A stretch of DNA of 34,156 nucleotides, from contig DASWMK010000182.1 of the NCBI GenBank assembly GCA_036399815.1, forward strand, positions 1-34,156. The letters are read 5' to 3'. Source of the stretch: Acidimicrobiales bacterium. GTDB lineage: Bacteria > Actinomycetota > Acidimicrobiia > Acidimicrobiales > DASWMK01. Shown piece by piece: positions 3,107 to 27,640 of the stretch (its first letter is position 1; every line of letters begins with the position of its first letter). The notes below the pieces were generated by a model. That model did no database searches. It was given only the letters and a program-made list of their open reading frames with translations, and was not told the origin of the DNA. Position numbers and translations under genes: made by a program.

Positions 3107-4453
3107 CTACTCGCCCTCTTCGATCAACGTCCTGATCTGGTCGGCGGCGTCGGTGAACGCCTGGCGGGGGTCGCCCTGGCCGGTGAGCACGAGCTGGTAG
3201 GCGTCGGTCCACGCGCTCCACACCGAGCCCATCTCGGGGATGGCGGGGAGCGGCTCGCCGTTGGCCCCGGCGGCCTGGAAGCCGGCGATGTCGGGGTCGT
3301 CGCTCACCTGCTCGAACGCCGCGGTGAGGGCCGGGGGCCGGCCGCCGGCCTCGAACAGGGCCACCTGGGCCTCCTCGTTGGCCATGAAGTCGACGAGGAA
3401 CGTCTGGGCGGCGAGCGGGTTCTCGGCCTGGGCCGACACCATGAACCCCTGCACGCCGACGAACGGCTTGGGCTCGCCGCCGGCCACCGGCGGGATGGGC
3501 TCGACCACGTACGGCACGCCGGTGGCGGCGAAGCCGGTGTCCTCCTGGGTGATGGCCCACGGGCCGGTGATGGCGAACGGGGCCCGCCCGCTGCCGAAGG
3601 ACTCGATCATCACGTCGTAGGTCGTCTCCGAGCTGATCAGCCCTTGGTCGGCCCACTGGGCGAACGCCTCGGCGGCCGCCAGCCCGCCCTCGCTGTCGAT
3701 GCCGAGGTCGGTCGGGTCGTAGCTGCCGTCGTCGCCGCGGCCGAACACGTAGCCGCCGAGCGCGGTGAACAGCGGGTAGTTGTGGAACGGGTCGCCCGGG
3801 TCCTCCTGGACGGCGAGGGGGACGTCGACCTGCCCCTCCGCCTTCAGGTCGAGGGCCGTCTGGGCCAGCTCCTCGAAGGTGGCCGGCGCCTCGGGGACGA
3901 GGTCGGTGTTGCGGATGAGGGCGACGTTCTCGACCGCGTACGGGAGGCCGTAGAGCTGGCCGTCGTAGGTGAACGCGTCGATGGCGACGGGGTTGAACTC
4001 CTCGGCCCGGTCGCCCAGGTCGACGGGGGCGACGACGCCGCTCGTGACGAGCTGGCCCAGCCAGTCGTGGGCGCCGATGATGATGTCCGGGCCCTCGCCG
4101 GCCGGCCCGGCGACGGTCAGCCGGTCGCGGATGTCGTCGAAGCCGAGCTCCTGCACGGCGACGGTGAGGTCGTTCTCCTCGCCGAACTGCTCGACGAAGG
4201 GCTGGATCACCGGCGTCCGCGTGTCGTCGGCCCAGATCACGAGGTCGGCGTCGGCCCTGACGACCTCCTCGCCCTCCTCCTCGCCCTCGGCGGCGGTGGT
4301 GGTGGTCGTCTCCTCCTCGGCCGCCTCGGTGGTGCTCGTGGTCGTCGAGTCCTCGGCCGCCGTCTCGTCGCCGTCGTCGTCCCCGCCGCACCCGGCGGCG
4401 AGCAGGGTCAGGACGGCGAGGACGGCGAGCACCAGCTTCCAGCGTGCGCGCAT
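3107..4453 (-). CDS. malE: Sugar-binding lipoprotein of the ABC transporter, MalE-like
   Basis: This 448-residue solute-binding protein starts with a lipoprotein signal: MRARWK, a hydrophobic stretch, then the lipobox LAAGC with the lipidated Cys near residue 22. A low-complexity Asp/Glu/Thr linker (about 24-68) tethers the domain to the membrane. The mature part from about 70 has the fold signature of family 1 binding proteins (DLVIWADDTRTPVI; GPDIIIGAHDWLGQLV). It would capture malto-oligosaccharides outside the cell and hand them to MalFG; the substrate is inferred from MalF and the GH13 gene downstream. AAGGGAA lies 6 nt before the ATG. A possible -10 box (TAGTGT on the minus strand, 4530-4525) gives a leader of about 65 nt, but no convincing -35 or MalR/LacI operator is visible. 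Confidence 0.93.
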   Translation of the reverse strand: MRARWKLVLAVLAVLTLLAAGCGGDDDGDETAAEDSTTTSTTEAAEEETTTTTAAEGEEEGEEVVRADADLVIWADDTRTPVIQPFVEQFGEENDLTVAVQELGFDDIRDRLTVAGPAGEGPDIIIGAHDWLGQLVTSGVVAPVDLGDRAEEFNPVAIDAFTYDGQLYGLPYAVENVALIRNTDLVPEAPATFEELAQTALDLKAEGQVDVPLAVQEDPGDPFHNYPLFTALGGYVFGRGDDGSYDPTDLGIDSEGGLAAAEAFAQWADQGLISSETTYDVMIESFGSGRAPFAITGPWAITQEDTGFAATGVPYVVEPIPPVAGGEPKPFVGVQGFMVSAQAENPLAAQTFLVDFMANEEAQVALFEAGGRPPALTAAFEQVSDDPDIAGFQAAGANGEPLPAIPEMGSVWSAWTDAYQLVLTGQGDPRQAFTDAADQIRTLIEEGE

Positions 4454-5082
4454 GGCGTTCCCTTCGGTGGGGCCGGTCGGGTCTGGCGCCGCCTCCGACC
4501 GCTGCCCGTCGGGGCGACGCCGTCACACTAGGTGCCGCCCGTCAGGGGCGTGCACGGCGCCGTCGCCAGGCCGCGCCGGTCGCCCGATCAGCGCGCGATC
4601 CATCGGCGTGCCGCGGGTGCGAGTGCGGAGTAGAAGCGGGACGCTCGCCAGCCGGGTCGCCCCGTCGCCGGCCCCCCGCCACGTCATCCGAGGAAAGCGC
4701 TCGCGCTCGCACTCGCGCCGCACTCCGCATAAGGAAGCAGTCGGCGTCAGGAAACGGCGCATGCCGCGCTTGTTCACGACTGCTCGCGCCGAATCTGGAA
4801 CTGCCAGCGTGCTGGCTCCGGACCATTACGACGCGGTGTAGCGGTGATAGCGATAGATCGATCCGTATTTACGCACTCGTCGAGGAGGCTCAACCTCGCG
4901 CGTGAGCAGGTGTGCGGCAAGAAAGCGCTGCCATACCACTTCGGCGATAGCAGATATTGCCTGGGGGGTATTCACGCTACACACACAAGAACGTCCCCGA
5001 ACGACACCTCATGAAGCAGAACCTACGGCGACGTAGACAGAGGCGCACTTAGTCCCACACTGTCGGGAGCGCCGAACGACGG
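4454..5082. other. 629-base stretch without a convincing gene, left side of AT-richer islet
   Basis: The first 100 bases are the leader and promoter zone of malE. From about 4700 the composition falls clearly below that of the flanks and stays low through the DUF4062 gene. Open frames of 84-94 codons on the minus strand (4523-4826) show no recognisable motif, no good ribosome site and Arg/Pro-rich shadow composition, so I do not call them. A small inverted repeat (CGAGG 4881-4885 with CCTCG 4894-4898) is too short to interpret. I see no tRNA, integrase or long direct repeat that would mark an element boundary. Confidence 0.5.
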
Positions 5083-6141
5083 CTACAACGAGCCGGGTCC
5101 CTTGGAGGTCTCTTCGTCGCCCTTCTGTGCGACGTCCTCGGCCTCGGGCAGTGGTTCAGCGTGCAGCGATAGTTGACGGACCTCCTTCAGTAGCTCGCGA
5201 CCTAATGAGGCGAGCGTCCAATAGTCATTATCATCATTGACTGAGTGACGTCGGGCGCTAGGTTCAACGAGCCCTAAAGCCACCAAGTCGGCCAGGATGG
5301 CCCTCACCTGATTCATCGCGGTGAGGTCCCAAGGACTATTGATTGCCGCATGCATTGCGAGCGTCTGGGACAATGAAGTCGTGGAGTCCTCTGTCACCAA
5401 TGACGGAGCAAGCCAATAGAAGATGTCAAAGAGCGAGGTCTCTGGACTGTCCTCCCAGGGTTGCGAGGGCCTCCGCCGGAAATTGTATTGAACGGTATTA
5501 CTCTCTAGGGCGCGGCGGACATCGAAAACTCGCCTTTTCTCATCGGCTCTCGACTGTCGTTTCGCGTCATCGAGTTGTTGCCGCAGGGCGGCGTTCTCGG
5601 CACTTAGCCGTGTCAGCTCCGCCATCACGGCTGGGCTCGCGACGGACGTACTCGCTCGCACCCAGCCCTCTCGTGGGTACGCCGTGAACGCCTTCATGAG
5701 CGCCACCACACATTTGGCATGCAGTTCGTCCGAATTTCTCCAGAAGTCTACGAGTCTCTCCTTGACCCGTGCTTTGAAGTCTTCAAGGCCGGCAAGCGCA
5801 ATCGGATCCTTGTCGACTCGGTCCGCGGGCCATTCAGCCTTCTCATCGATGAGGAATGCCAGTACGGGGACTCCTCTGGTTACTGCATACTCATACTCGC
5901 GGCGTGTGTAGCTCTGTCCGTCCTCAAGGGTCGACCCGTATCTATGCGCGAGTATTGCAATGTAGTAATCACTCTCATCGATGTGTCGCTGAATGATCCG
6001 CCATTGCTCCTCGTCGGCAGCGCTAAACATCTCCATGCCGACGGGAATGTGACCCATCTCTAATACGGCGCGCACAACAGTCTCGCGCTCAATTCTAAGA
6101 TCCTCATATGTCGAACTGACGAATATTTGATACTTCTGCAT
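5083..6141 (-). CDS. DUF4062-domain protein with coiled coil and C-terminal winged-helix-like region
   Basis: This 352-residue protein opens with the DUF4062 signature (QIFVSSTYEDLRIERETV, residues 5-22), continued by a HxDESDYYIAILAHRYGS-like strand-turn segment (53-70) and YEYAVTRGVPVLAFLID (83-99). DUF4062 is known as an N-terminal module of NTPase/STAND-like and defence-associated proteins; its fold is usually described as TIR-like, and its activity here is unknown. A short coiled coil follows at about 172-200 (ELTRLSAENAALRQQLDD). Residues about 270-325 look like a winged helix, with alternating helices and a DYWTLASLGRELL ending. No P-loop NTPase domain is present. The gene stands alone, in sequence far poorer in G+C than its neighbours (samples of 45% and 52% against 78%), pointing to horizontal acquisition. 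GGGGGG precedes the ATG by about 4 nt. An antiphage role is only a guess. Confidence 0.85.
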   Translation of the reverse strand: MQKYQIFVSSTYEDLRIERETVVRAVLEMGHIPVGMEMFSAADEEQWRIIQRHIDESDYYIAILAHRYGSTLEDGQSYTRREYEYAVTRGVPVLAFLIDEKAEWPADRVDKDPIALAGLEDFKARVKERLVDFWRNSDELHAKCVVALMKAFTAYPREGWVRASTSVASPAVMAELTRLSAENAALRQQLDDAKRQSRADEKRRVFDVRRALESNTVQYNFRRRPSQPWEDSPETSLFDIFYWLAPSLVTEDSTTSLSQTLAMHAAINSPWDLTAMNQVRAILADLVALGLVEPSARRHSVNDDNDYWTLASLGRELLKEVRQLSLHAEPLPEAEDVAQKGDEETSKGPGSL

Positions 6142-13981: not shown

Positions 13982-14818
13982 TCAGGCGGCGTCGGTGTCG
14001 ATGCGGTTGGCGGCCTCGTCGCGCACGGCGCTGACGGCCCGCTTGACCAGCCGGCGGGCGGCCTCGGCGGTCACGCCCAGCTCCTCGCCGACCTCCCGGT
14101 AGCTGCGCTTGCGGCCGTCGTGGAGGCCGAAGCGCTGCTCGACGGCGTAGCGGGCCCTCGCGTCGAGGACGCCGAGCAGGTCGGTCACCATCTGCTCCTC
14201 GGCCCTGGCCAGCACCTCGGCCTCGGGGCCGGGGGTGGCGTCGGGGAGGATGTCGACCAGCTCGTTGCTGTCGTCGTCGCCGATCGTCCGGTCGAGCGAC
14301 GTCGGCGTGGTGAGGCGGTGGAGCAGCGCGTGCTCGTCGTCGAGCTCGTCGCCGTCGCCGGCCACCTGGCGGAGGGCGGCGCGGAGGCTGGCCGAGCGGT
14401 CACCGGGCAGGCGGACGAGGCTCGCCTTCTGGTCGAGGGCCCGGCCGATGGCCTGGCGGATCCAGAAGGTGGCGTAGGTGGAGAACTTGAACCCCTTGCG
14501 CCAGTCGAACTTGTCGACGGCGTGCTCGAGGCCGAGGTTGCCCTCCTGGATGAGGTCGAGCAGCTCCATGCCGGGGGGCAGCGGGTAGCGGCGGGCGACG
14601 CTCACGACGAGGCGGAGGTTCGCCCTGATGAACCGGTCCTTGGCGCGGGCCGCGGCGCGCACCTTGCGGCGCAGCGCCGGGTCGTGCTCGCCCGCCTCGA
14701 TGCGGGCGGCCGCGAGGCGGCCCTGCTCGATGATCTGCGACAGCTCCCGCTCCTCGGCGGCGGTGAGGAGGGGGACGAGGCCGATTTCGTTGAGGTACTG
14801 GCCGACGGAATCGCTCAT
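13982..14818 (-). CDS. Sigma-70 family RNA polymerase sigma factor, group 2-like
   Basis: This 278-residue sigma factor has region 1.2 (residues 3-35, DSVGQYLNEIGLVPLLTAAE), region 2 (about 60-130, including ANLRLVVSVARRYP, LDLIQEGNLGLEHAVDKFDW and the -10-recognising KGFKFSTYATFWIRQAI), region 3 (about 130-205) and region 4 (about 213-270) with helix-turn-helix SYREVGEELGVTAEAARRLV. No long acidic region 1.1 is present, so it is a non-essential primary-like (SigB/HrdA type) rather than the housekeeping factor. AGGTG stands just before the ATG. Its 95-bp upstream gap is shared with the divergent NuoF-like gene and holds a 7-bp inverted repeat that could be an operator. Confidence 0.93.
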   Translation of the reverse strand: MSDSVGQYLNEIGLVPLLTAAEERELSQIIEQGRLAAARIEAGEHDPALRRKVRAAARAKDRFIRANLRLVVSVARRYPLPPGMELLDLIQEGNLGLEHAVDKFDWRKGFKFSTYATFWIRQAIGRALDQKASLVRLPGDRSASLRAALRQVAGDGDELDDEHALLHRLTTPTSLDRTIGDDDSNELVDILPDATPGPEAEVLARAEEQMVTDLLGVLDARARYAVEQRFGLHDGRKRSYREVGEELGVTAEAARRLVKRAVSAVRDEAANRIDTDAA

Positions 14819-19346: not shown

Positions 19347-19709
19347 GTGGTCGTGGCGGCCAGGGCGGCGGCCGACAAGCAGGGAGCGGACACCCTGGTG
19401 CTGGAGGTCGGTGAGGTGCTCGCCATCACCGACTGGTTCGTGATCACGAGCGGTCGCAACCCGCGGCAGGTGCGGACGATCGCCGAGGAGGTCGAGGAGC
19501 AGATCACCGTCCGGGGCGGCCCGAAGCCCCTCCGGATCGAGGGCCTCGACGACCGCCGCTGGGTGCTCCTCGACTACGGCCCGTTCGTCGTGCACGTCTT
19601 CCTCGACGAGGCCCGGGCCTACTACGAGCTCGAGCGCCTCTGGCGCGACGTCCCCCGCCTGGACTGGGCCGGCGACGACGCGCTCGCCGAGGCGGCCGCC
19701 GCCGAGTAG
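19347..19709 (+). CDS. rsfS: Ribosome silencing factor RsfS
   Basis: This 120-residue protein binds ribosomal protein uL14 on the large subunit and blocks subunit joining in starvation. The family core is complete: ADKQGADTLVLEVGEVLAIT (8-27), DWFVITSGRNPRQVRTIAEE, LDDRRWVLLDYGPFVVHVFL and the C-terminal YYELERLWRDVP. The start is uncertain. GTG 19347 is the first canonical in-frame start but cuts the usual N-terminal helix and has no ribosome site close by. The frame stays open and homologous-looking upstream (RSHEWVVVAARAA), where only non-canonical ATT 19290 or CTG 19296 could serve, the former after an AGGGAG run. It is the third gene of the nadD block. Confidence 0.93.
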   Translation: MVVAARAAADKQGADTLVLEVGEVLAITDWFVITSGRNPRQVRTIAEEVEEQITVRGGPKPLRIEGLDDRRWVLLDYGPFVVHVFLDEARAYYELERLWRDVPRLDWAGDDALAEAAAAE

Positions 19710-19727: not shown

Positions 19728-21869
19728 TCAGACGGCCTGGACGACCACCACCGCGACGTCATCGTCGAGCACCCCGTCGGCGAAGGCGCGCACGCTGTCG
19801 TCGATGGCGTCGGCGATCGCCTCGGCGTCCTGCCCGGCGAGGCCGCTCAGCAGCGCGGCCAGCCGCTCGTCGTCGTAGAAGTCACCGCCGCGGTCGCGGG
19901 CCTCGAGCACCCCGTCGGTGACCACCACCAGCGTGGCGCCCGGGCGCAGCTCGACGAGGCTCGGCGTGAACTCCACGTCGGCGACGACCCCGAGCAGCGG
20001 GTTGCGCGCCGCGGCCGGGGTGACGGTGCCGTCCGGGTCGAGCACGAGGGGCGGCGGGTGGCCCGCGCCCACCAGCTCGACGGTGGTCGGCTCGCCGTCG
20101 CCCGCCGGGTGCACGAGGGCGAAGACCGCGGTGCAGAAGCGGGAGTCGTCGACGTCGGCGAGGACGTTGGCGTTCACCTCGGCGGCGATGGCCGCCGGCC
20201 CGTACCCCGCCCTGGCCAGCGCCCGTGACGTGTACCGGACCTGGGCGTTGAGTGCCGCCGCCGACGGCCCCCGCCCGCAGACGTCGCCGACCACCAGCAG
20301 CCAGCGACGGTCCTCGAGCGGCACGAAGTCGTAGAAGTCGCCGCCGACGGCGACCCCCTCCCCGGCGGCGCGGTAGCGGGCCGCCACCTCCACGCCGCGC
20401 AGGGCCGGCGGCGGCAGGGGCGCGAGGCCGGCCTGGAGCGCGTCGGCGATCGTCCGCGCCCGCCCGTAGAGCAGCGCCCGCTCCAGCGCGGACGCCGCCT
20501 GCGCGGCGAACGCCTGGAGGAGGACGTCGTCGCCGTCGGTCGCCCTCCGGTCGCCGGCCCACGCCCACACGAGCACGCCGAGCACCTGTCCGTGGGCGAT
20601 GAGGGGGACGTACGTGACGGTCCTGCGGGCGCCGTCGTGGACGGTCAGCGCCCGGCGGGACCGGACCGCCTCCGCCATGGGCACGCCGTCGGCGCCGAGC
20701 GGGACCGTCCGGCGGGCCGCCTCGCCCGCGTCGCCGACGGCCTCGACGACCCGAACCTCGTGGGCGCCGTGGTCGACCACGGCCAGCACGCCCGCGCTCG
20801 CGCCGACGGCGGGGACGCTCTCCTGGAGGACCCCGCGGCCCACGTCCTCGACGGTGGCCGCGGCCACGAGCCGGGCGGCCGACCGCTGGAGCTGCTGGGT
20901 GCGGTCCGCCGCCCGCCTGGCCTGGTCGAACAGGCGGGCGTTGTCGGCCGCCGTCGCCGCCCGCTCGGCCAGCTCCTCGGCGAGCAGCAAGGCGTCGCCC
21001 TCGAGCTCCCGGCCGCCGCCGACGCTCAGCCCGAGCACCCCGATCACCCGGCCCCGGGCCACGAGCGGGACGGCCAGGCCTGCCTCGACATCGAGCTCGC
21101 GCAGCAGGCGCAGGTGCTCCTCGTCGTCGGCGAGCGCCGACAGCACGTCGTCCGACATGGGGGCGAGGAGCTGCGACTGGCCGGTGGCGATGGCGGCGCC
21201 GAGCCCCAGCGGGCCGGCCCGCAGCGGATACCGGTCGAACACCGTCGCCGCCGCCCGCTCCCGGCGGCGGTCGACGTGGCGGACGGCGGCGACCCGGTAG
21301 GTCCCGTCGGCCTCGACGGTGAACAGGATGGCCCCGTCGGCGATGCGGGGGACGGCCAGCTCGACCAGCCGGGAGAGGGTCTCGCCGAGCTCGAGCGACT
21401 CGGCCAGCACGGCGGACGCGTCCGCGAGGAAGGCGAGGCGGGCCATGGCCTGCTCCCGCTCGACCTCGGCCAGCTTGCGGTCGGTGACGTCGACGACGCA
21501 GCCGATCGTCCCGGTGACGTTCCCCGCCGCGTCGAGGGTGACGTCGCCTCGCCCCTGGATCCAGCGCACGGTGCCGTCCGGCCACACGATGCGGTGGTCC
21601 ATCGTGTACGGGCGGGCCTCGGCGACGGCGGCCCGCACCGCCGACTGCACGGCCTCCCGCTCGTCGGGGTGGAGGCGCGAGACATAGGCCTCGTAGGTCC
21701 CGTCGAACCCGCCCGGCGGGAACCCGAAGATCTCCTCCAGCCGCGCGTCCCACTCGACCCGCCCGCTCGCCATGTCCCACTGCCACGTCCCCATCCGGCC
21801 GGCGTCGAGCGCCAGCCGCAGGTGGTCGTCGCGGGCCCCTCGCTCGGTGGCGGGGGTGGGAGACGTCAC
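19728..21869 (-). CDS. PAS-GAF-GAF sensor with SpoIIE-type PP2C phosphatase domain
   Basis: This 713-residue soluble sensor phosphatase has a PAS domain (about 15-135; GTWQWDMASGRVEWD, RIVWPDGTVRWIQGRGDV), a first GAF (about 150-315), a second GAF (about 330-475) and a SpoIIE/RsbU-type PP2C domain (about 490-713). The phosphatase keeps the metal-binding Asp residues in VGGDFYDFVPLEDRRW (about 507-522), VVGDVCGRGPSAA and the terminal DDDVAVVVVQ. Such proteins dephosphorylate anti-anti-sigma factors and so release an alternative sigma factor after a signal. No anti-sigma or STAS gene is near; a sigma factor gene lies at 13982-14818, but a link is speculative. GTG 21869 follows a CAGGAT box by 7 nt, and the gene converges on rsfS. 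Confidence 0.93.
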   Translation of the reverse strand: MTSPTPATERGARDDHLRLALDAGRMGTWQWDMASGRVEWDARLEEIFGFPPGGFDGTYEAYVSRLHPDEREAVQSAVRAAVAEARPYTMDHRIVWPDGTVRWIQGRGDVTLDAAGNVTGTIGCVVDVTDRKLAEVEREQAMARLAFLADASAVLAESLELGETLSRLVELAVPRIADGAILFTVEADGTYRVAAVRHVDRRRERAAATVFDRYPLRAGPLGLGAAIATGQSQLLAPMSDDVLSALADDEEHLRLLRELDVEAGLAVPLVARGRVIGVLGLSVGGGRELEGDALLLAEELAERAATAADNARLFDQARRAADRTQQLQRSAARLVAAATVEDVGRGVLQESVPAVGASAGVLAVVDHGAHEVRVVEAVGDAGEAARRTVPLGADGVPMAEAVRSRRALTVHDGARRTVTYVPLIAHGQVLGVLVWAWAGDRRATDGDDVLLQAFAAQAASALERALLYGRARTIADALQAGLAPLPPPALRGVEVAARYRAAGEGVAVGGDFYDFVPLEDRRWLLVVGDVCGRGPSAAALNAQVRYTSRALARAGYGPAAIAAEVNANVLADVDDSRFCTAVFALVHPAGDGEPTTVELVGAGHPPPLVLDPDGTVTPAAARNPLLGVVADVEFTPSLVELRPGATLVVVTDGVLEARDRGGDFYDDERLAALLSGLAGQDAEAIADAIDDSVRAFADGVLDDDVAVVVVQAV

Positions 21870-21915
21870 GCCCCGAATCCTGCCGCGCGCGAGGGCACGC
21901 GAGGGCGACGGGCGG

Positions 21916-22602
21916 TCAATCGCCCATGCCGTCGAGCCAGGCGAGCGCGAGGTCGACGACGTGGAGGGGGACGGCGTGCCCGCCGGGGAACTCCTCGTAG
22001 CGCACGTCCAGGCCGGACTCCCGCAGCAGGCGGGCGACCCGGCGGCCGCAGCGGTCGATCGGCAGCACCCGGTCGGCCACGCCGTGGGAGACGAACACCC
22101 GGGGCGACCCGCGCACGGTGGCCGGCGCGGCGAAGCCCGGCGAGAAGGCGACGAGGGACGGGAACAGGTCGCCGTTCGTCAGGCCGAGGGAGAGGGCGTA
22201 GGAGGCGCCGTCGGAGAACCCGCCGATGGCGACCCGGTCGGCGGCCACGGCGTACCGCTCGAACGTGTCGGCCAGGCCGGCGTCGATGCGGGCCGCGTCG
22301 GGGCCGAAGCCGCCGACGAGCAGGTCCCAGGTGGCGGCGCCCGAGTCGGGCGCGAGGACGATCAGGCCGGCGTCGTCCAGCCGGGCGCCGAGGAGGTCGA
22401 CGGCCTGGCGGGCGCGGCCGCCCGCGCCGTGGAGGAGCACGATGAGCCCGCGAGGGTCGGGCGGGACGTAGCGCAGCCCGACGGGGAGGCCGCCGACCTC
22501 GAGCGTGTGCAGCCCGCTGGGTCCGCCGCTCGCCGGCGCGCCGCCACCGGGCCGGGCGCCGAGCCGGCCGTCGCTCGGGTCGCCGCCCCGGTTGCCGCGC
22601 AT
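21916..22602 (-). CDS. Alpha/beta hydrolase, phospholipase/carboxylesterase-like
   Basis: This 228-residue hydrolase has the oxyanion strand LIVLLHGAGGRA, the nucleophile elbow GGFSDGASYAL (Ser in GFSDG), the acid Asp in SHGVADRVLPID and the catalytic His in FPGGHAVPLHVV. The layout and length match the phospholipase/carboxylesterase or dienelactone-hydrolase-like group. The substrate is unknown, and no signal peptide is clear. I use ATG 22602; GTG 22635 directly after the upstream stop would add 11 Arg/Gly-rich residues and cannot be excluded. The first 35 residues are Gly/Pro-rich linker. Confidence 0.85.
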   Translation of the reverse strand: MRGNRGGDPSDGRLGARPGGGAPASGGPSGLHTLEVGGLPVGLRYVPPDPRGLIVLLHGAGGRARQAVDLLGARLDDAGLIVLAPDSGAATWDLLVGGFGPDAARIDAGLADTFERYAVAADRVAIGGFSDGASYALSLGLTNGDLFPSLVAFSPGFAAPATVRGSPRVFVSHGVADRVLPIDRCGRRVARLLRESGLDVRYEEFPGGHAVPLHVVDLALAWLDGMGD

Positions 22603-22635
22603 CGGGCCCGCTGTACCCCGCCTGCGGCGCTCCAC

Positions 22636-23052
22636 TCAATCCGGGATGGCGAGGTACGCCTCGGTCAACCAGCCGAGGATCTCCTCGTCGAGGTCGTCCG
22701 GGTCGCGGACGTTGACGACGTGGTACCAGCGCCCGCCGTGGGGGATCGGCTTGCGGGTGATCCGGGGGTGGCGCACGACGCGGGGGAGCGAGAACGAGAG
22801 GGCGACCCAGCGCTGCATCGGCCGGAGCTGGGCGAAGGTGCCGGACCGCTTGAGGAAGATGCCGACCGACACGGGCTCGACGTGCACCGGCCCGACGCCG
22901 GCCAGGTGGGCCATGACCGCGTCGAACACCGGCCGCTCGTGCGGCGGCCCCGTCGAGAAGTACTCGTCGAGCGACATGGCCGGCGCGCACTCGTGGGTCT
23001 GCCCGCGGCGCGCGAACCGCCGCCCGCACGCCGGGCACTCCCACACCGCCAT
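22636..23052 (-). CDS. DUF5655-type protein with N-terminal zinc-binding motif
   Basis: This 138-residue protein begins with a small zinc-ribbon-like motif, Cys6, Cys9, His20 and Cys22 ([10 protein letters not shown]...THEC), followed from about residue 27 by the DUF5655 region ([45 protein letters not shown]). The function of the family is not known. It ends directly before the esterase frame, so the two are probably one operon. TAGAC lies about 10 nt before the ATG with no ribosome site. Confidence 0.75.
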
Positions 23053-23089
23053 GCCGACCGTCTACCAGGGCGGGGCGACGGCCCGCCGG

Positions 23090-23278
23090 TCAGGTGGTGG
23101 CGTTGCCGCTGGAGTCGGTGTTCTCGCCGGTGCGGTCGTCGTACGGGGGCACCAGCCCGCCCGGCTCCTCCTCGCCGCCCGGCTGCGGGTTCGGCCCCCG
23201 CGAGGCCCGCCCGCCCGGCTGCACGTCCCGGTTCCCGCCCTCGGGGTTCCGGCCGGGGTCGTCCTTGGTGTCCGACAT
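23090..23278 (-). CDS. Small Gly/Pro/Asp-rich disordered hypothetical protein
   Basis: This 62-residue protein is made almost only of Gly, Pro, Asn, Asp, Glu and Ser, with no hydrophobic core, membrane helix or Cys, so it is expected to be disordered. I accept it as a gene because AGAGGAGGAG, containing a perfect AGGAGG (23288-23283), stands just before its ATG, one of the best ribosome sites in the window. No homologue or role is recognised. Confidence 0.7.
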   Translation of the reverse strand: MSDTKDDPGRNPEGGNRDVQPGGRASRGPNPQPGGEEEPGGLVPPYDDRTGENTDSSGNATT

Positions 23279-23387
23279 CGCTCCTCCTCTGGGTAGGGCG
23301 ATGCCGGTGGCGTACCCACGGGGGCGCCGCGGCAGGCGTCGACCTGTCGTGCCGACGACCCGCCACGGCGCCCACGCGAGCGGACGG

Positions 23388-23810
23388 TCAGCAGGCGTAG
23401 GTGCTGCCGCGCGTGCCGTCCCGGTAGTCGAGCAGGCTGTCGCTGACCCACCCGGACACGCCCGTGGTCGTGTCGCGGAGGTAGGTCCACGTGCTCCACC
23501 CGTTCACCGTGTCGCCCACGGCCCAGCAGTGGTAGTCCACGTTGTGGGTCAGCTGGCCCTGGCCGAGCGCCGTGCACGAGGTGTGCGGGCCCGTCCTGAT
23601 GTAGACGCCGCTGGCGTCGAAGAACTGCCCCGCGCGGGGGTCGAGGTTCGAGTGCGCATGGGTGCAGCTGCGGGTGCCGGCACCGTCGGCGGTCGCCGCC
23701 GCCTTGGCGCCCGTCGGCCGCGGCTGGCCGGCGTCGGCCGGCACGACGAGCACACCGAGCAGCATGGAGGCGGCGGCGAGCGCGCCGAGGACGAGGTTGC
23801 GGAGTCGCAT
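23388..23810 (-). CDS. Small secreted SH3-like (bacterial SH3-type) protein
   Basis: This 140-residue protein has a Sec signal peptide (MRLRNLVLGALAAASMLLGV, then VVPADAG with likely cleavage after ADA near residue 27). The mature part resembles a bacterial SH3-type domain: GVYIRTGPHTSC at about 73-84, DYHCWAVGDTVNGWSTWTYL and GVSGWVSDSLLDYR. Four Cys residues could form disulfides outside the cell. Such domains bind peptidoglycan or act as host- or toxin-like secreted modules; no enzyme domain is present. I chose ATG 23810, preceded by AAGGGGGG; an upstream frame start (23864) would precede the signal peptide. Two inverted repeats lie upstream. Confidence 0.85.
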   Translation of the reverse strand: MRLRNLVLGALAAASMLLGVLVVPADAGQPRPTGAKAAATADGAGTRSCTHAHSNLDPRAGQFFDASGVYIRTGPHTSCTALGQGQLTHNVDYHCWAVGDTVNGWSTWTYLRDTTTGVSGWVSDSLLDYRDGTRGSTYAC

Positions 23811-23849
23811 GAATTCCCCCCTTGACGAGGCGGGGCGAGAGGAAACGTC

Positions 23850-23873
23850 CTGGCGACCGCGCACGATCGCCAG
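23850..23873. promoter_or_regulatory. CTGGCGA-N10-TCGCCAG inverted repeat upstream of the SH3 gene
   Basis: A perfect 7-bp inverted repeat with 10-nt spacer lies 40 nt upstream of the secreted SH3 protein start. The half-site spacing of 17 bp fits an operator, or the sequence may fold in the 5' leader. Confidence 0.35.
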
Positions 23874-23941
23874 ACGAGAGGTGGTGCCCGCCGTTCTCCG
23901 CCCGCTCCGCCGCTGGTGTCCGGGCCGACGATTCGCTCGGT

Positions 23942-23963
23942 ACGGGTTTCAGCGTAAACCCGT
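23942..23963. other. Perfect 8-bp stem-loop ACGGGTTT-cagcgt-AAACCCGT
   Basis: An 8-bp perfect stem with a 6-nt loop stands in the divergent gap, about 130 nt from the SH3 gene. It has no T-tract on either side and no upstream gene that would need a terminator, so an operator or recombination-type site is as likely as a terminator. GATTCG occurs on both sides (near 23931 and 23969). Confidence 0.45.
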
Positions 23964-24262
23964 GGGGCGATTCGTCAAGCCGTCAGTGTGAGCGCCGACG
24001 GACGGGTGAGCGTCCGCGGCGACACCGGCGGCACCAGCCGGCGCGCGGCGACCCGCGCCCGCGTTGCCACTCCGTCGGACGTGTCGAGAACTCGGAGCAG
24101 TTTCTCCCGAGCATCTCGACGCCGTAGGGGGAGCTGCGTCCTCGACAGAAAGAGCACGACGATCTAGGGTGCGCGATCCGCGAAGAGCGGCCCGGCCTGC
24201 GGCTGCAATCTGGACAGCTCTTCGATGCACCCAACGTGGTGCCATCCCAGGAGAGGGCGCGC

Positions 24263-25051
24263 ATGTCGAACGAGGCCACCGACGCCGGACGTGCCGTGCG
24301 GGAGCTGCACGAGAAGCTCGCCGACGCCATCGAGGCGCGGTCCAATGACCCTCGCATCCGGGCAGTGCGACGTGAGTTCCTCTCCGGCATCGACGTTCCG
24401 GAGGGCGCCCGCGTGCTCGAGATCGGCTCCGGGACCGGTGCCGTGACCCGTGAGCTCGCGCAGTTGGCGAACGTCGCGCACGCCACGGGGGTCGACACCT
24501 CCAAGGTCTTCGTCGCACGCGCCCGTGAGCTCGCCCAGGGCGTCGAGAACGTCTCGTTCGAGGAGGGCGACGGCCGCCGCACGCCGTTCGACGACGAATC
24601 GTTCGACGTCGTCGTCCTGCACACCGTCATCTGTCACGCTCTCGTCCCTGAACAGCTGATCGCGGAGGCCTTCCGCGTCCTGCGATCGGGTGGCCTCGTG
24701 GCGATCCTCGATGCCGACGACGCGACGGTCGCCATCGGGGACTCCGACCCGCTCCAGGCGTGTATCGACGTCTTGCCGGTCCAGAACCTCGGTCTGGTGC
24801 GTCGAGTGCCTGCGATGCTCGAGGAATACGGGTTCGAGGCGTTGCCCATGCGGTGCCACGGGTACGTCGAGGCTCCGGAGGGTGGCCTCATGCTCGCCTG
24901 GATCGACCGAGGAGCGGAAGCGCTCGTCAAGCTCGACCGAATCGGCAAGGAGCTCGCCGACGCCCTGCGAGCAGAAGCCCAGCGCCGGAGTGCGTCCAAG
25001 TCGTGGTTCGGGCACATTTCGTTCTTCAGCGCGGTCGGTCGCAAGCCCTGA
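24263..25051 (+). CDS. SAM-dependent methyltransferase (class I)
   Basis: This 262-residue Rossmann methyltransferase has motif I VLEIGSGTG at 51-59, an acidic strand-2 end (TGVDTSK near 75), DGRRTPFDDESFDVVVLHTV (motif II/IV area near 110-125) and RVLRSGGLVAILDADD after it. The N-terminal 45 residues are helical and would cap the substrate site. AGGAGAGGG sits before ATG 24263. It is the first gene of a four-gene block of lower G+C with the small peptide, a sulfotransferase and an MBL protein, suggesting O- or N-methylation of a shared small molecule or peptide. The substrate cannot be read from the sequence. Confidence 0.88.
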   Translation: MSNEATDAGRAVRELHEKLADAIEARSNDPRIRAVRREFLSGIDVPEGARVLEIGSGTGAVTRELAQLANVAHATGVDTSKVFVARARELAQGVENVSFEEGDGRRTPFDDESFDVVVLHTVICHALVPEQLIAEAFRVLRSGGLVAILDADDATVAIGDSDPLQACIDVLPVQNLGLVRRVPAMLEEYGFEALPMRCHGYVEAPEGGLMLAWIDRGAEALVKLDRIGKELADALRAEAQRRSASKSWFGHISFFSAVGRKP

Positions 25052-25100
25052 CCGCCGTCCATCGAGGTTCACCCGTCATCGGAGATGGATCTCCCAAACG

Positions 25101-25106
25101 AGGAGG
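25101..25106 (+). promoter_or_regulatory. AGGAGG ribosome-binding site of the small peptide gene
   Basis: A perfect AGGAGG ends 5 nt before GTG 25112. It decides the start: the in-frame ATG at 25085 lies upstream of it and has no comparable site, so translation most likely begins at the GTG. Confidence 0.7.
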
Positions 25107-25111
25107 ATGCG

Positions 25112-25264
25112 GTGCCTGACGGCTTCGACGCCGAGATCGAGATCGCGAGCGCGAGGGACATCGTCTCGAACGCAGCCGTGACCAGCAGCACCATGAAGTT
25201 CCAGGACCTCTACGCGGCGCTGGACGTCGAAGACCTCGCGGAGACCTATGTCTTCCGGCACTAG
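25112..25264 (+). CDS. 50-residue acidic peptide, candidate precursor or small partner of the tailoring cassette
   Basis: A short gene lies between the methyltransferase and the sulfotransferase (60 nt after one, 37 nt before the other). From GTG 25112 it encodes 50 residues; an ATG at 25085 would give 59. It is acidic, has no Cys, no signal peptide and no membrane segment. The C-terminal third reads FQDLYAALDVED (30-41) then LAETYVFRH (42-50). Tyr34 and Tyr46 are both close to acidic residues, the context preferred by tyrosylprotein sulfotransferases. The perfect ribosome site and its place in a collinear block support a real gene. I do not recognise the family. It may be a peptide substrate of the neighbours or a small accessory protein; no radical SAM, RRE or cyclase is visible. 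Confidence 0.7.
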   Translation: MPDGFDAEIEIASARDIVSNAAVTSSTMKFQDLYAALDVEDLAETYVFRH

Positions 25265-25301
25265 GCCGGTGTAGGCAGCTTCCCGATCGAGGCGCGCTCC
25301 G

Positions 25302-26174
25302 GTGGAGGGTCCCGTCGAGGCCGACTCCGTGAGCAACGGTCCGGTGTTCGTCGTCGGCATCGTCCGTTCCGGCACGTCGCTCATGAGCATGATGCTGTCG
25401 GCGCATCCCGCGTTCGCGGTCGCGCCGGACCTGCACTACATCCACCATTGGGTTCGGCGCCACCGCCACCTCGAGCTCTCGCGGCCGGCAGACTTCGAAG
25501 AGTTCTGGGCGGCATTCAGCGGAAACGAGCGCTTCGGCTACCTCGGGGTCGACGCCGACGACGTGCGTCGGTACATCGAGGCCACGCAGCGCTTCAGCTT
25601 TCGCGGCGTCTACCTCTCGATCCTCGAGACCTTCGCCGCCAACCTGCAGAAGCGTCGCTGGGGCGAGAAGACGCCGTTCACCGCGAACCATCTCGACACG
25701 CTCTTCGGCTGGTTCCCCGACGCCCGGGTGATCTACATGCTGCGCGATCCGCGGGCGGTCGTCAGCTCGCTGCGGAAGATCCCCTGGCTCGCCGACGTGG
25801 GCGTGCCGACCCACGCACGGTCGTGGGCCACGGGCGTGGGTCGGGCGCTCGCCGATGACGGCGATCCACGCGTCCTGCGGGTGCGGTACGAGCGTCTCGT
25901 GCATCGACCGACCGACGAGCTCGCCCGGATCTGCCGGTTCCTCGACGAGGAGTACTCGCCCGAGATGCTGACCGGTCGACCTGCGCTCGGAACGTGGGCA
26001 CTCAGAGATCGGGAAGGGTGGGAGCGGACGCACCTGAGCGCCGCCCTGGGCCCGGTCCACGATGCCTCCGTCGAGCGATGGAGGCGAGAGCTGGCGCCGG
26101 GTGAGGTCGAGCTGATCGAGGAGATCTGCGGGCCCGTCATGCAGCAAGCCGGGTACTCGCCCTCGGAGACCTAG
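25302..26174 (+). CDS. PAPS-dependent sulfotransferase
   Basis: This 290-residue protein carries both PAPS-binding elements: the 5'-phosphosulfate loop GIVRSGTSLMSMM (19-31) and the 3'-phosphate motif with Arg148 and Ser155 in VIYMLRDPRAVVSSLRK (143-159). RWGEKTP (119-124) between them is typical of the Sulfotransfer_3-like group, which includes tyrosylprotein- and natural-product sulfotransferases. It moves a sulfuryl group from PAPS to a hydroxyl or amine. The start is GTG 25302; GTG 25329, nine codons on and after a GAGG, is also possible. No signal peptide is seen, so it acts in the cytoplasm. Its neighbour on the 5' side is the small tyrosine-bearing peptide. Confidence 0.92.
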   Translation: MEGPVEADSVSNGPVFVVGIVRSGTSLMSMMLSAHPAFAVAPDLHYIHHWVRRHRHLELSRPADFEEFWAAFSGNERFGYLGVDADDVRRYIEATQRFSFRGVYLSILETFAANLQKRRWGEKTPFTANHLDTLFGWFPDARVIYMLRDPRAVVSSLRKIPWLADVGVPTHARSWATGVGRALADDGDPRVLRVRYERLVHRPTDELARICRFLDEEYSPEMLTGRPALGTWALRDREGWERTHLSAALGPVHDASVERWRRELAPGEVELIEEICGPVMQQAGYSPSET

Positions 26175-26206
26175 GTGTCCGACGCGAGACCTGGTCGGGA
26201 GACGCC

Positions 26207-27538
26207 GTGCGGGTGACCGTCCTCGGCCACGCGAGCCTGCTCTTCGAGACGGCGAACGAGCGGATACTGCTGGACCCGGTCCTGCGCACCACGGCGTTGC
26301 TCGGGAGCGTCGTCCATCAGTATCCACGGGCGCTCGCCCTCGAACGCCTGCCGACTCCGACCCTGCTCGTGGTCACGCATGCTCACTACGACCACTTCGA
26401 CCCGGAGACGCTCGCGGAGCTGCCGAAGGGCATCCCGGTGGTGGTGCCGCCTGATCCGAGGCTGGCGGAGCAACTCCGACGCCTCGGGTTCGCCGAGCTC
26501 CGAGTCCTGGAGCCGTGGGGCCACACCGAGCATGGCTCGGTTCGGTTGACGGCGACACCGTCGGAGGCGCACGTGTCGGAGTTCGGTCTCCTGGTCGAGA
26601 CCGATGATGCCCGGCTCTGGCACATGTCCGACGCGGAGCCACCTGTCGGTACGTCATCGAGGATCCTGTCCGAGCTCGGCGAGGTGGACGTCGTCTCGGT
26701 GAAGTACCAGCCCCCGGACCCACTCCTGAACTTCCTGCACAACCTCGGCTCGAGCTTCGATCGCAGGTCGACGGCTCGCTGGCTGGAAGAAGCCTGCGCC
26801 TGCCGCCCGAAGCTCGCCTTTCCGTATGCGTCCGGGCTCTGCCTGACACAAGAGCACGCGTGGCTGAATCGGTACGCCTACCCGTTCTCTCCGGAACAGG
26901 TCGCCGCGGTGCTCGACGAGCGACTCACGGGCATCGGCCGATCCGCCGTGGTCAGGCCCGGCGACGTGATCTCGATGGGGTCCGGGCCGGTCGAGCTCGA
27001 GCGGCAAGCGAGCGACGTCGTGCGGCAGTGTGGCGAGGAGACACCGATCGACTGGGAGCCGATCGAGATCGACCGTCTGGGCACGCTCTCTCGGCCCGCC
27101 GACAAGACGGCCGTCACCGAGCAACTGACGGAGATCGTCGCCGGCGGAGAGTTCTCCGCATGGCTACGGGCGAACCCGAAGCTGCTCAAGCCGTTTCACG
27201 AATGGCGCGTGCTCTGTCAGTTCGTGGTCCATCTGGACGAGACCGAACGCCTGTACTTCCAGGCGGACTTCACGGGCGGCACCCCGGAAGGCCGCCTCGG
27301 AAGGAGTGGCGCGGCGAACTACTTCCTGCACGTCGGCGGCGACGCGGCGCGGCGTCTGCTCGGTGGGCACGCCTCGTCGGCCGAGGTGATGTATCAAGGC
27401 CAGGTCCGGGTCTTCGAGCGCATCGTCTCGGTCCGAGACGGCAAGGTCGACGCGCCGGACGTGGAGCACGTGTACGGGACCTTCCCGGATCCCTTCCTGT
27501 GCTTCGCGACCGCCCGGGCCAGGCTGGCGAAGCCGTAG
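26207..27538 (+). CDS. MBL-fold metallohydrolase with long unassigned C-terminal region
   Basis: This 443-residue protein starts with a metallo-beta-lactamase fold of the UlaG/CMAH-like kind: VTVLGHASLLFET (3-15), the metal motif THAHYDHFD with His58, His60, Asp62 and His63, and WHMSDAEPP holding a bridging Asp. The domain ends near 250-260. The next 190 residues do not match any family I know; VLCQFVVHLDETERLYFQADF and GRSGAANYFLHVGGDAARRLLGG weakly suggest an SCP2-like sterol-carrier fold. MBL proteins hydrolyse esters or lactones or perform oxidations, so the reaction is open. GGGAG precedes GTG 26207 and the gene is 32 nt after the sulfotransferase. It ends 30 nt from the tRNA-Ala. Confidence 0.87.
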   Translation: MRVTVLGHASLLFETANERILLDPVLRTTALLGSVVHQYPRALALERLPTPTLLVVTHAHYDHFDPETLAELPKGIPVVVPPDPRLAEQLRRLGFAELRVLEPWGHTEHGSVRLTATPSEAHVSEFGLLVETDDARLWHMSDAEPPVGTSSRILSELGEVDVVSVKYQPPDPLLNFLHNLGSSFDRRSTARWLEEACACRPKLAFPYASGLCLTQEHAWLNRYAYPFSPEQVAAVLDERLTGIGRSAVVRPGDVISMGSGPVELERQASDVVRQCGEETPIDWEPIEIDRLGTLSRPADKTAVTEQLTEIVAGGEFSAWLRANPKLLKPFHEWRVLCQFVVHLDETERLYFQADFTGGTPEGRLGRSGAANYFLHVGGDAARRLLGGHASSAEVMYQGQVRVFERIVSVRDGKVDAPDVEHVYGTFPDPFLCFATARARLAKP

Positions 27539-27558: not shown

Positions 27559-27567
27559 ACACCCGGG

Positions 27568-27640
27568 TGGAGCTGAGCGGACTCGAACCGCCGGCCTCTT
27601 GCATGCCATGCAAGCGCTCTTCCAACTGAGCTACAGCCCC
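27568..27640 (-). tRNA. tRNA-Ala(GGC)
   Basis: Read on the minus strand, the 73-nt gene has a 7-bp acceptor stem (GGGGCTG with CAGCTCC, one G-T pair), the D-arm TAGCTCAGTTGGAAGAGC, the anticodon stem CTTGC/GCAAG around loop ATGGCAT with anticodon GGC (reads GCC and GCU Ala codons), and the T-arm GGCGGTTCGAGTCCGCT. The discriminator base is A. The genome continues CCC, so the 3' CCA is not encoded. The lower-G+C cassette 24263-27538 ends at its 3' side. Confidence 0.95.

Follow-up and report, generated by a model that had tools for sequence, protein, structure and literature searches.

The subject of this analysis is a compact row of four plus-strand open reading frames (ORFs) on a 34,156-nt contig of an Acidimicrobiales bacterium (G000:C182; DASWMK010000182.1 in assembly GCA_036399815.1). 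The whole contig is referred to here as the window, and it belongs to a 4.16 Mb draft genome that is 96.7% complete. The row, called the cassette below, encodes a methyltransferase, a 50-residue peptide, a sulfotransferase and a protein of the metallo-beta-lactamase (MBL) fold, and it lies between rsfS and a tRNA-Ala gene as follows.

19347-19709, plus strand: rsfS (PF02410, 2.4e-29), the far border of a variable interval
24263-25051, plus strand: class I S-adenosylmethionine-dependent methyltransferase of 262 aa (P0001; PF08241, 8e-25), with a Shine-Dalgarno-like AGGAG upstream of its ATG
25101-25106, plus strand: perfect Shine-Dalgarno sequence AGGAGG, separated by 5 nt from the GTG start codon of the peptide ORF
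25112-25264, plus strand: orphan acidic 50-aa peptide (P0002), a putative precursor recognized by coding periodicity and codon score
25302-26174, plus strand: PF13469 (Sulfotransfer_3) sulfotransferase of up to 290 aa (P0003; 1.5e-31)
26207-27538, plus strand: MBL-fold protein of 443 aa (P0004; Lactamase_B_2, PF12706, 1.8e-14)
27566-27640 (ARAGORN) or 27568-27640 (Rfam), minus strand: tRNA-Ala(GGC) (RF00005, 65.7 bits)

The coordinates bear out the initial annotation, which had described four collinear genes separated by 60, 37 and 32 nt; the last stop codon lies 27-29 nt from the 3′ end of the tRNA gene on the opposite strand, depending on whether the ARAGORN or the Rfam bounds are taken, where 30 nt had been given. 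The spacing and shared strand suggest that the four genes may be co-transcribed. The annotation had also seen a lower G+C content in the cassette, comparing single lines of sequence at 62% and 77%. That difference is clear at third codon positions (GC3), with values of 0.85, 0.92, 0.88 and 0.87 for the methyltransferase, peptide, sulfotransferase and MBL genes against 0.996 in leuS and 0.94-0.99 in the closest genes upstream, but the contrast in total G+C is smaller than those lines implied (0.63-0.69 for the cassette genes and 0.714 for leuS).

Several lines of evidence indicate that the 50-aa ORF is very likely a gene, a prediction drawn from its codon periodicity, its ribosome-binding site and its codon usage. 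G+C at codon positions 1, 2 and 3 is 0.61, 0.37 and 0.92, and the start lies in the context acgaggaggatgcg GTG, containing AGGAGG, which is the strongest ribosome-binding site among the cassette genes; a longer in-frame start, the ATG at 25085, has no such Shine-Dalgarno site. Under a codon-usage score trained on the three cassette enzyme genes, which themselves score 0.45-0.52 bits per codon, the peptide frame reaches 0.715 bits per codon and the other two forward frames -0.59 and -0.68. Elsewhere in the window, the 60 ORFs of 40-80 aa used for comparison all score lower than the peptide, the best of them standing at 0.28. The predicted product is acidic, has no cysteine and ends in ETYVFRH, and its two tyrosines, Tyr34 and Tyr46, each have an acidic residue two positions upstream (DLY and ETY). 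It matches no family in Pfam or NCBIfam, and no homologue was found in plasmids, its own genome, 198 Actinomycetota genomes, viral contigs or any of the fetched loci. The best outside match (L167, 39% over 41 aa) was rejected as chance, since it runs antisense to a dapD-like gene.

The peptide-modifying role that the initial annotation had allowed for the cassette enzymes gains support because full-length relatives of P0004 recur within clusters for ribosomally synthesized and post-translationally modified peptides (RiPPs). The closest relative (57% identity, 434 aa) is encoded by an uncultured Thermomonosporaceae metagenome-assembled genome (locus L032), where the MBL gene begins 10 nt downstream of the stop codon of TfuA, which itself directly follows YcaO (PF07812, 2.7e-44, and PF02624, 1e-71, respectively). 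That contig ends within YcaO, and a precursor gene could lie beyond its edge. Adjoining YcaO-TfuA-MBL at the same locus (3643-5853, minus strand) is a gene for a 736-aa protein that has no Pfam match and whose N-terminal half resembles a CHAT peptidase by eye, a possible leader protease. A tblastn search of plasmids located further full-length relatives in clusters of Nostoc and Pseudanabaena galeata. On the Nostoc plasmid the MBL gene stands between SagB and NHLM export genes, together with a leader-binding protein of the thiazole/oxazole-modified microcin type and Nif11 and NHLP precursors, and the P. galeata cluster holds LanM, Nif11 precursors, a second MBL gene and NHLM exporters.

The association extends to members that were picked by similarity to P0004 and not by neighborhood. 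A five-sequence profile recovered ten full-length members from 242 cyanobacterial genomes, and about 20 kb around each cyanobacterial MBL locus was scored for RiPP markers. RiPP core or export genes lie near 7 of the 10 full-length members and near 1 of 13 controls with N-terminal MBL similarity only (Fisher p = 0.003, or 0.014 after three near-identical Pseudanabaena-type loci were collapsed), where most of the markers had been drawn from two of these clusters, a choice that favors cyanobacterial matches, and the controls are likewise cyanobacterial. The loci L114 and L032 also lie within RiPP clusters. The closest cyanobacterial member (L153; 37%, 300 bits) adjoins a LanB dehydratase (PF04738, 2.9e-26), a tryptophan halogenase and an NHLM exporter. 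We found no description of an MBL-fold RiPP enzyme of the P0004 type in open-licence papers, a search that did not extend to subscription literature and is weak evidence of novelty.

The surveyed loci include three that merit mention in their own right. At L147:2884-10727 (G875:C17), three Nif11-type precursors, a tryptophan halogenase, a UPF0489 arginase-family gene and an MBL gene form a candidate cluster for a halogenated, ornithine-containing RiPP. At L158:9897-13210 (G875:C26), a cyanobacterial MBL gene with N-terminal similarity to P0004 only stands beside a TfuA-YcaO pair. At L116:3689-12389, on Streptomyces europaeiscabiei plasmid NZ_CP109155.1, YcaO, an MBL-fold gene, a DUF692 multinuclear iron enzyme (MNIO) and LuxE/LuxC-like acyl genes accompany a 53-aa peptide with four FPFR repeats, an arrangement suggestive of an unusual RiPP cluster whose cores are repeated. 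Its MBL protein was not counted as a family member despite the YcaO and MNIO neighbors, the similarity being confined to the MBL domain (28% over 217 aa).

These clusters also bear on a different role for the cassette peptide, namely that it serves the three enzymes as a carrier, scaffold or regulator instead of being their substrate. The peptide is short and acidic, lacks an obvious repeated or Cys-rich core and belongs to no recognized leader family, as would suit an accessory protein, but it shows no known carrier signature in Pfam or NCBIfam, and where the MBL family occurs in RiPP clusters, small precursor genes lie near the MBL gene. We regard the accessory role as improbable.

P0004 comprises an MBL domain (approximately residues 1-265) followed by a C-terminal region (approximately 266-443) without fold assignment. 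An AlphaFold model of residues 1-266 has a mean predicted local distance difference test score (pLDDT) of 83.6, and comparison of it with Foldseek/VIA confirms the MBL fold; the model of the whole protein (pLDDT 49.5) was not used. Twelve full-length members share H58, H60, D62 and H63 (the HxHxDH motif), S119, E125, D142, W219 and N221 without exception. The earlier label of MBL hydrolase is sound for the fold and for the HxHxDH motif that P0004 shares with canonical hydrolases of the UPF0173, SaxA and NAPE-PLD type, but its second half is doubtful because the third (site 1) and last (site 2) metal-binding histidines are missing. P0004 has alanine at both positions (A121 and A208). The last histidine is missing from 12 of 12 members and the third from 11 of 12, L153 having one, whereas hydrolase-type MBL proteins aligned with P0004 retain the third in 12 of 13 cases and the last in 13 of 13. 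H122, one residue past the third-histidine position, is not conserved.

We favor an oxidative chemistry for P0004, similar to that of CmlA and FrsH, over a hydrolytic one. The proposal draws on the residues of the site and on profile comparison with solved structures, in which FrsH (1.6e-12) and CmlA (1.6e-11) come first, followed by NAPE-PLD (5.6e-11) and SaxA (1.6e-8). Both CmlA and FrsH are MBL-fold diiron beta-hydroxylases, and P0004 resembles them in combining HxHxDH with the following aspartate (D142). In CmlA a glutamate, E377, takes part in the metal site, as the title of entry 5kil also states; E120 or the invariant E125 of P0004 could correspond to it, a match that is not firm where the alignment is gapped. 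The two hydroxylases differ from P0004 in carrying approximately 250 extra N-terminal residues, so that residue 1 of P0004 aligns to residue 252 of FrsH. They hydroxylate carrier-bound amino acids of nonribosomal synthetases, whereas P0004 begins with its MBL domain and continues into the unassigned C-terminal region. Over residues 1-265, P0004 is also homologous to Rieske-fused MBL proteins of Actinomycetota (for example Tsukamurella P0011; HHalign probability 99.6), but the C-terminal Rieske motif CxH...CxxH is present in 14 of 14 of those proteins and in none of 12 members of the P0004 family.

The sulfotransferase, whose start may be the GTG at 25329, carries the 3′-phosphoadenosine-5′-phosphosulfate (PAPS) binding motif GIVRSGTSLM. 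Its PAPS loop and residues 107-287 can be aligned with protein-tyrosine sulfotransferases, and its matches among solved structures include the polyketide sulfotransferase CurM (3.2e-10) and the tyrosylprotein sulfotransferases (TPSTs) TPST2 and TPST1 (1e-9 to 8e-9). By analogy with bacterial RaxST (PMC6637879) and animal TPSTs, it is plausible that the enzyme sulfates a tyrosine of the peptide, Y34 or Y46. The methyltransferase is too generic to assign; its structural matches include the RiPP methyltransferase LahSB (6uak, 2.4e-13), a likeness dropped as evidence since generic methyltransferases score equally well.

The sulfotransferase is also where an alternative substrate has to be considered. 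PF13469 enzymes mostly act on small molecules or glycans. The three enzymes could tailor a lipid, glycan or polyketide, with the short ORF incidental or encoding a structural small protein. This would accord with CurM as the narrowly best match, with the tandem sulfotransferase arrays found among the nearest relatives of the enzyme, and with the wider MBL relatives, which include Rieske-fused proteins for which no RiPP link was seen. Against it stand the strong tie between full-length MBL relatives and RiPP clusters, the closest relative being next to YcaO-TfuA, and the position of the small ORF, which is part of the compact row and has the strongest ribosome-binding site in it. On balance we consider small-molecule tailoring unlikely, although it is the most credible of the alternatives to a modified peptide.

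Horizontal acquisition of the cassette, as the initial annotation had proposed, agrees with the GC3 shift, the variable rsfS-tRNA-Ala interval and the failure to find a full-length P0004 match in any of 58 further genomes from its order. The same tRNA-Ala precedes leuS at 15 of 19 loci of same-order relatives, and rsfS lies beyond the tRNA at 7 of 9 relative loci that were read further out. In three relatives rsfS and tRNA-Ala stand 46, 114 and 131 bp apart. Four others carry different genes there and have 1.7-3.0 kb between the two borders; the corresponding span of the window, at 7.9 kb, holds opposite-strand genes and then the cassette. The evidence supports insertion of the cassette into this interval because the length and content of the interval vary and the MBL gene is missing from the 58 same-order genomes. 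The stretch from rsfS through tRNA-Ala to leuS (window 19728-27538; L206-L214) has the appearance of a variable insertion site across the order, with unrelated cargo by family. Site-specific integration at the tRNA gained no support, and the type of element is unproven: no direct repeat was found (the tRNA 3′ region has no exact repeat of at least 14 bases elsewhere in the window), and no integrase was seen. A virus-borne origin was rejected, there being no relative of the MBL protein or the peptide among viral contigs.

An interval of this kind could gather unrelated acquired genes that share no function, and the four-gene combination was indeed seen once in all genomes examined. Such a chance pile-up is very improbable for genes that share a strand, gaps of 32-60 nt and a uniformly atypical GC3 (0.85-0.92), whereas the other genes of the interval, which encode a PAS/GAF/SpoIIE regulator, an esterase, a DUF5655 protein and a secreted protein, lie before the cassette, are encoded on the opposite strand and for the most part show native GC3. 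Two features elsewhere in the window may be noted here. An isolated island of 55-58% G+C at 5083-6141 (minus strand), in a contig of 75% G+C, encodes a 352-aa DUF4062 protein (PF13271, 6.7e-30) and is probably another acquired gene, perhaps defense-related. An ARAGORN tRNA-Ala call at 14608-14700 (plus strand), inside a sigma-70 gene (13982-14818, minus strand), is not confirmed by Rfam and is likely a false positive.

Taken together, the coding frame of the peptide, the compact row of genes of the same foreign composition, the occurrence of the MBL family within RiPP clusters and the non-canonical metal site lead us to favor, with some reserve, the view of the cassette as a small RiPP-type operon, acquired horizontally, whose peptide is the substrate and whose three enzymes modify this peptide or a residue of its C-terminal portion. 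Two hallmarks of such operons are seen: a short predicted precursor gene beside modifying enzymes, as indicated by the coding test, the ribosome-binding site and gaps of at most 60 nt, and an enzyme of a RiPP-associated family, the MBL protein. The 50-aa peptide would be made as substrate, the step most directly supported by the placement of its gene beside modifying enzymes. The steps that follow are put forward in decreasing strength. The sulfotransferase would sulfate one of the two tyrosines, the MBL enzyme would oxidize one or more residues by hydroxylation of the CmlA/FrsH kind and not by hydrolysis, the methyltransferase might cap or decorate the product, and leader removal and export might be carried out by genes elsewhere in the genome. 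The most likely product is a new modified, perhaps sulfated, peptide.

Several observations weigh against this reading. The initial annotation had named repeated co-occurrence of the four genes in unrelated lineages as the support to look for, and this expectation failed: no other genome examined had the set, and no peptide homologue was detected in the genomes searched. With P0004 or its C-terminal part as query, no second full-length member appeared in 295 and 395 other Actinomycetota genomes, nor was one present in 342 other genomes of the L032 family, and a pattern scan of an 84,980-species collection returned one close relative (L032). The pattern scan detects close relatives only and the searches at phylum level cover a sample of the phylum, which means that sister cassettes, if rare, could be missed. 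The best sulfotransferase relatives (31-37%), several of them in tandem arrays, have no adjoining MBL or peptide homologue, and RiPP markers are lacking around 3 of the 10 cyanobacterial MBL relatives. A thioamide RiPP was rejected for the window genome on the ground that it contains no YcaO. A search of the rsfS-tRNA interval found no exporter or protease there. Exporters and leader proteases are common in RiPP clusters and are not a strict requirement. Pfam scans of the cassette revealed no obvious leader-recognition domain (RiPP recognition element or PqqD-like), a class whose divergent members escape Pfam. As to the oxidative chemistry, the profile scores of FrsH and CmlA are barely better than that of NAPE-PLD, and fold comparison cannot separate oxygenase from hydrolase (VIA/Foldseek Z of 23.4 for UPF0173, 22.7 for CmlA and 22.7 for the metallo-beta-lactamase 2wym).

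A broader proposal, which we offer tentatively as possible and still doubtful, is that P0004 and its full-length relatives constitute a distinct MBL-fold family of RiPP-tailoring enzymes, CmlA-like in oxidative chemistry, free of a Rieske domain and both actinobacterial and cyanobacterial, which here together with a tyrosine sulfotransferase and a methyltransferase would yield an undescribed sulfated and oxidized RiPP. If the RiPP-type account of the cassette is correct, it adds one more peptide-sulfating cassette to the few known bacterial cases, and it draws attention to a family of MBL-fold enzymes met repeatedly in RiPP clusters of the thioamide, azole, LanM and LanB kinds. An altered hydrolase site within RiPP clusters makes for a testable claim of new, probably oxidative, RiPP chemistry.

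Comparison with known systems places the cassette near several of them. The raxX-raxST locus of Xanthomonas, which has spread horizontally, sets a 60-aa precursor gene beside a tyrosylprotein sulfotransferase (PMC6637879). The cassette likewise pairs a small peptide gene with a sulfotransferase that may be TPST-like (TPST1/TPST2, 1e-9, with CurM equally close). It differs in its flanking methyltransferase and MBL-fold enzyme, in having no RaxA/RaxB secretion genes and in the lack of a transporter between rsfS and leuS. In mycobacteria, YcaO-TfuA clusters are reported in which the precursor peptides lie close to a sulfotransferase and a type III polyketide synthase (PMC6511847). The likeness to actinobacterial YcaO-TfuA clusters for thioamidated RiPPs lies in the nearest P0004 relative, directly after a YcaO-TfuA pair, but the window genome lacks YcaO and no type III polyketide synthase occurs among the genes examined. 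The Nif11/NHLM clusters of the Nostoc sp. C057 plasmid and of P. galeata pPg_03 share with the cassette a homologous full-length MBL protein (24-27% over approximately 420 aa). Unlike the cassette, the cyanobacterial clusters have LanM, LanB and YcaO/SagB cores, dedicated exporters and Nif11 leaders. The pPg_03 cluster has been described in a paper in which the words "MBL" and "lactamase" do not occur (PMC11356792). Against this background the cassette is best read as an orphan of RiPP type, and its most valuable part is the recurrent, RiPP-associated and apparently under-described MBL family.

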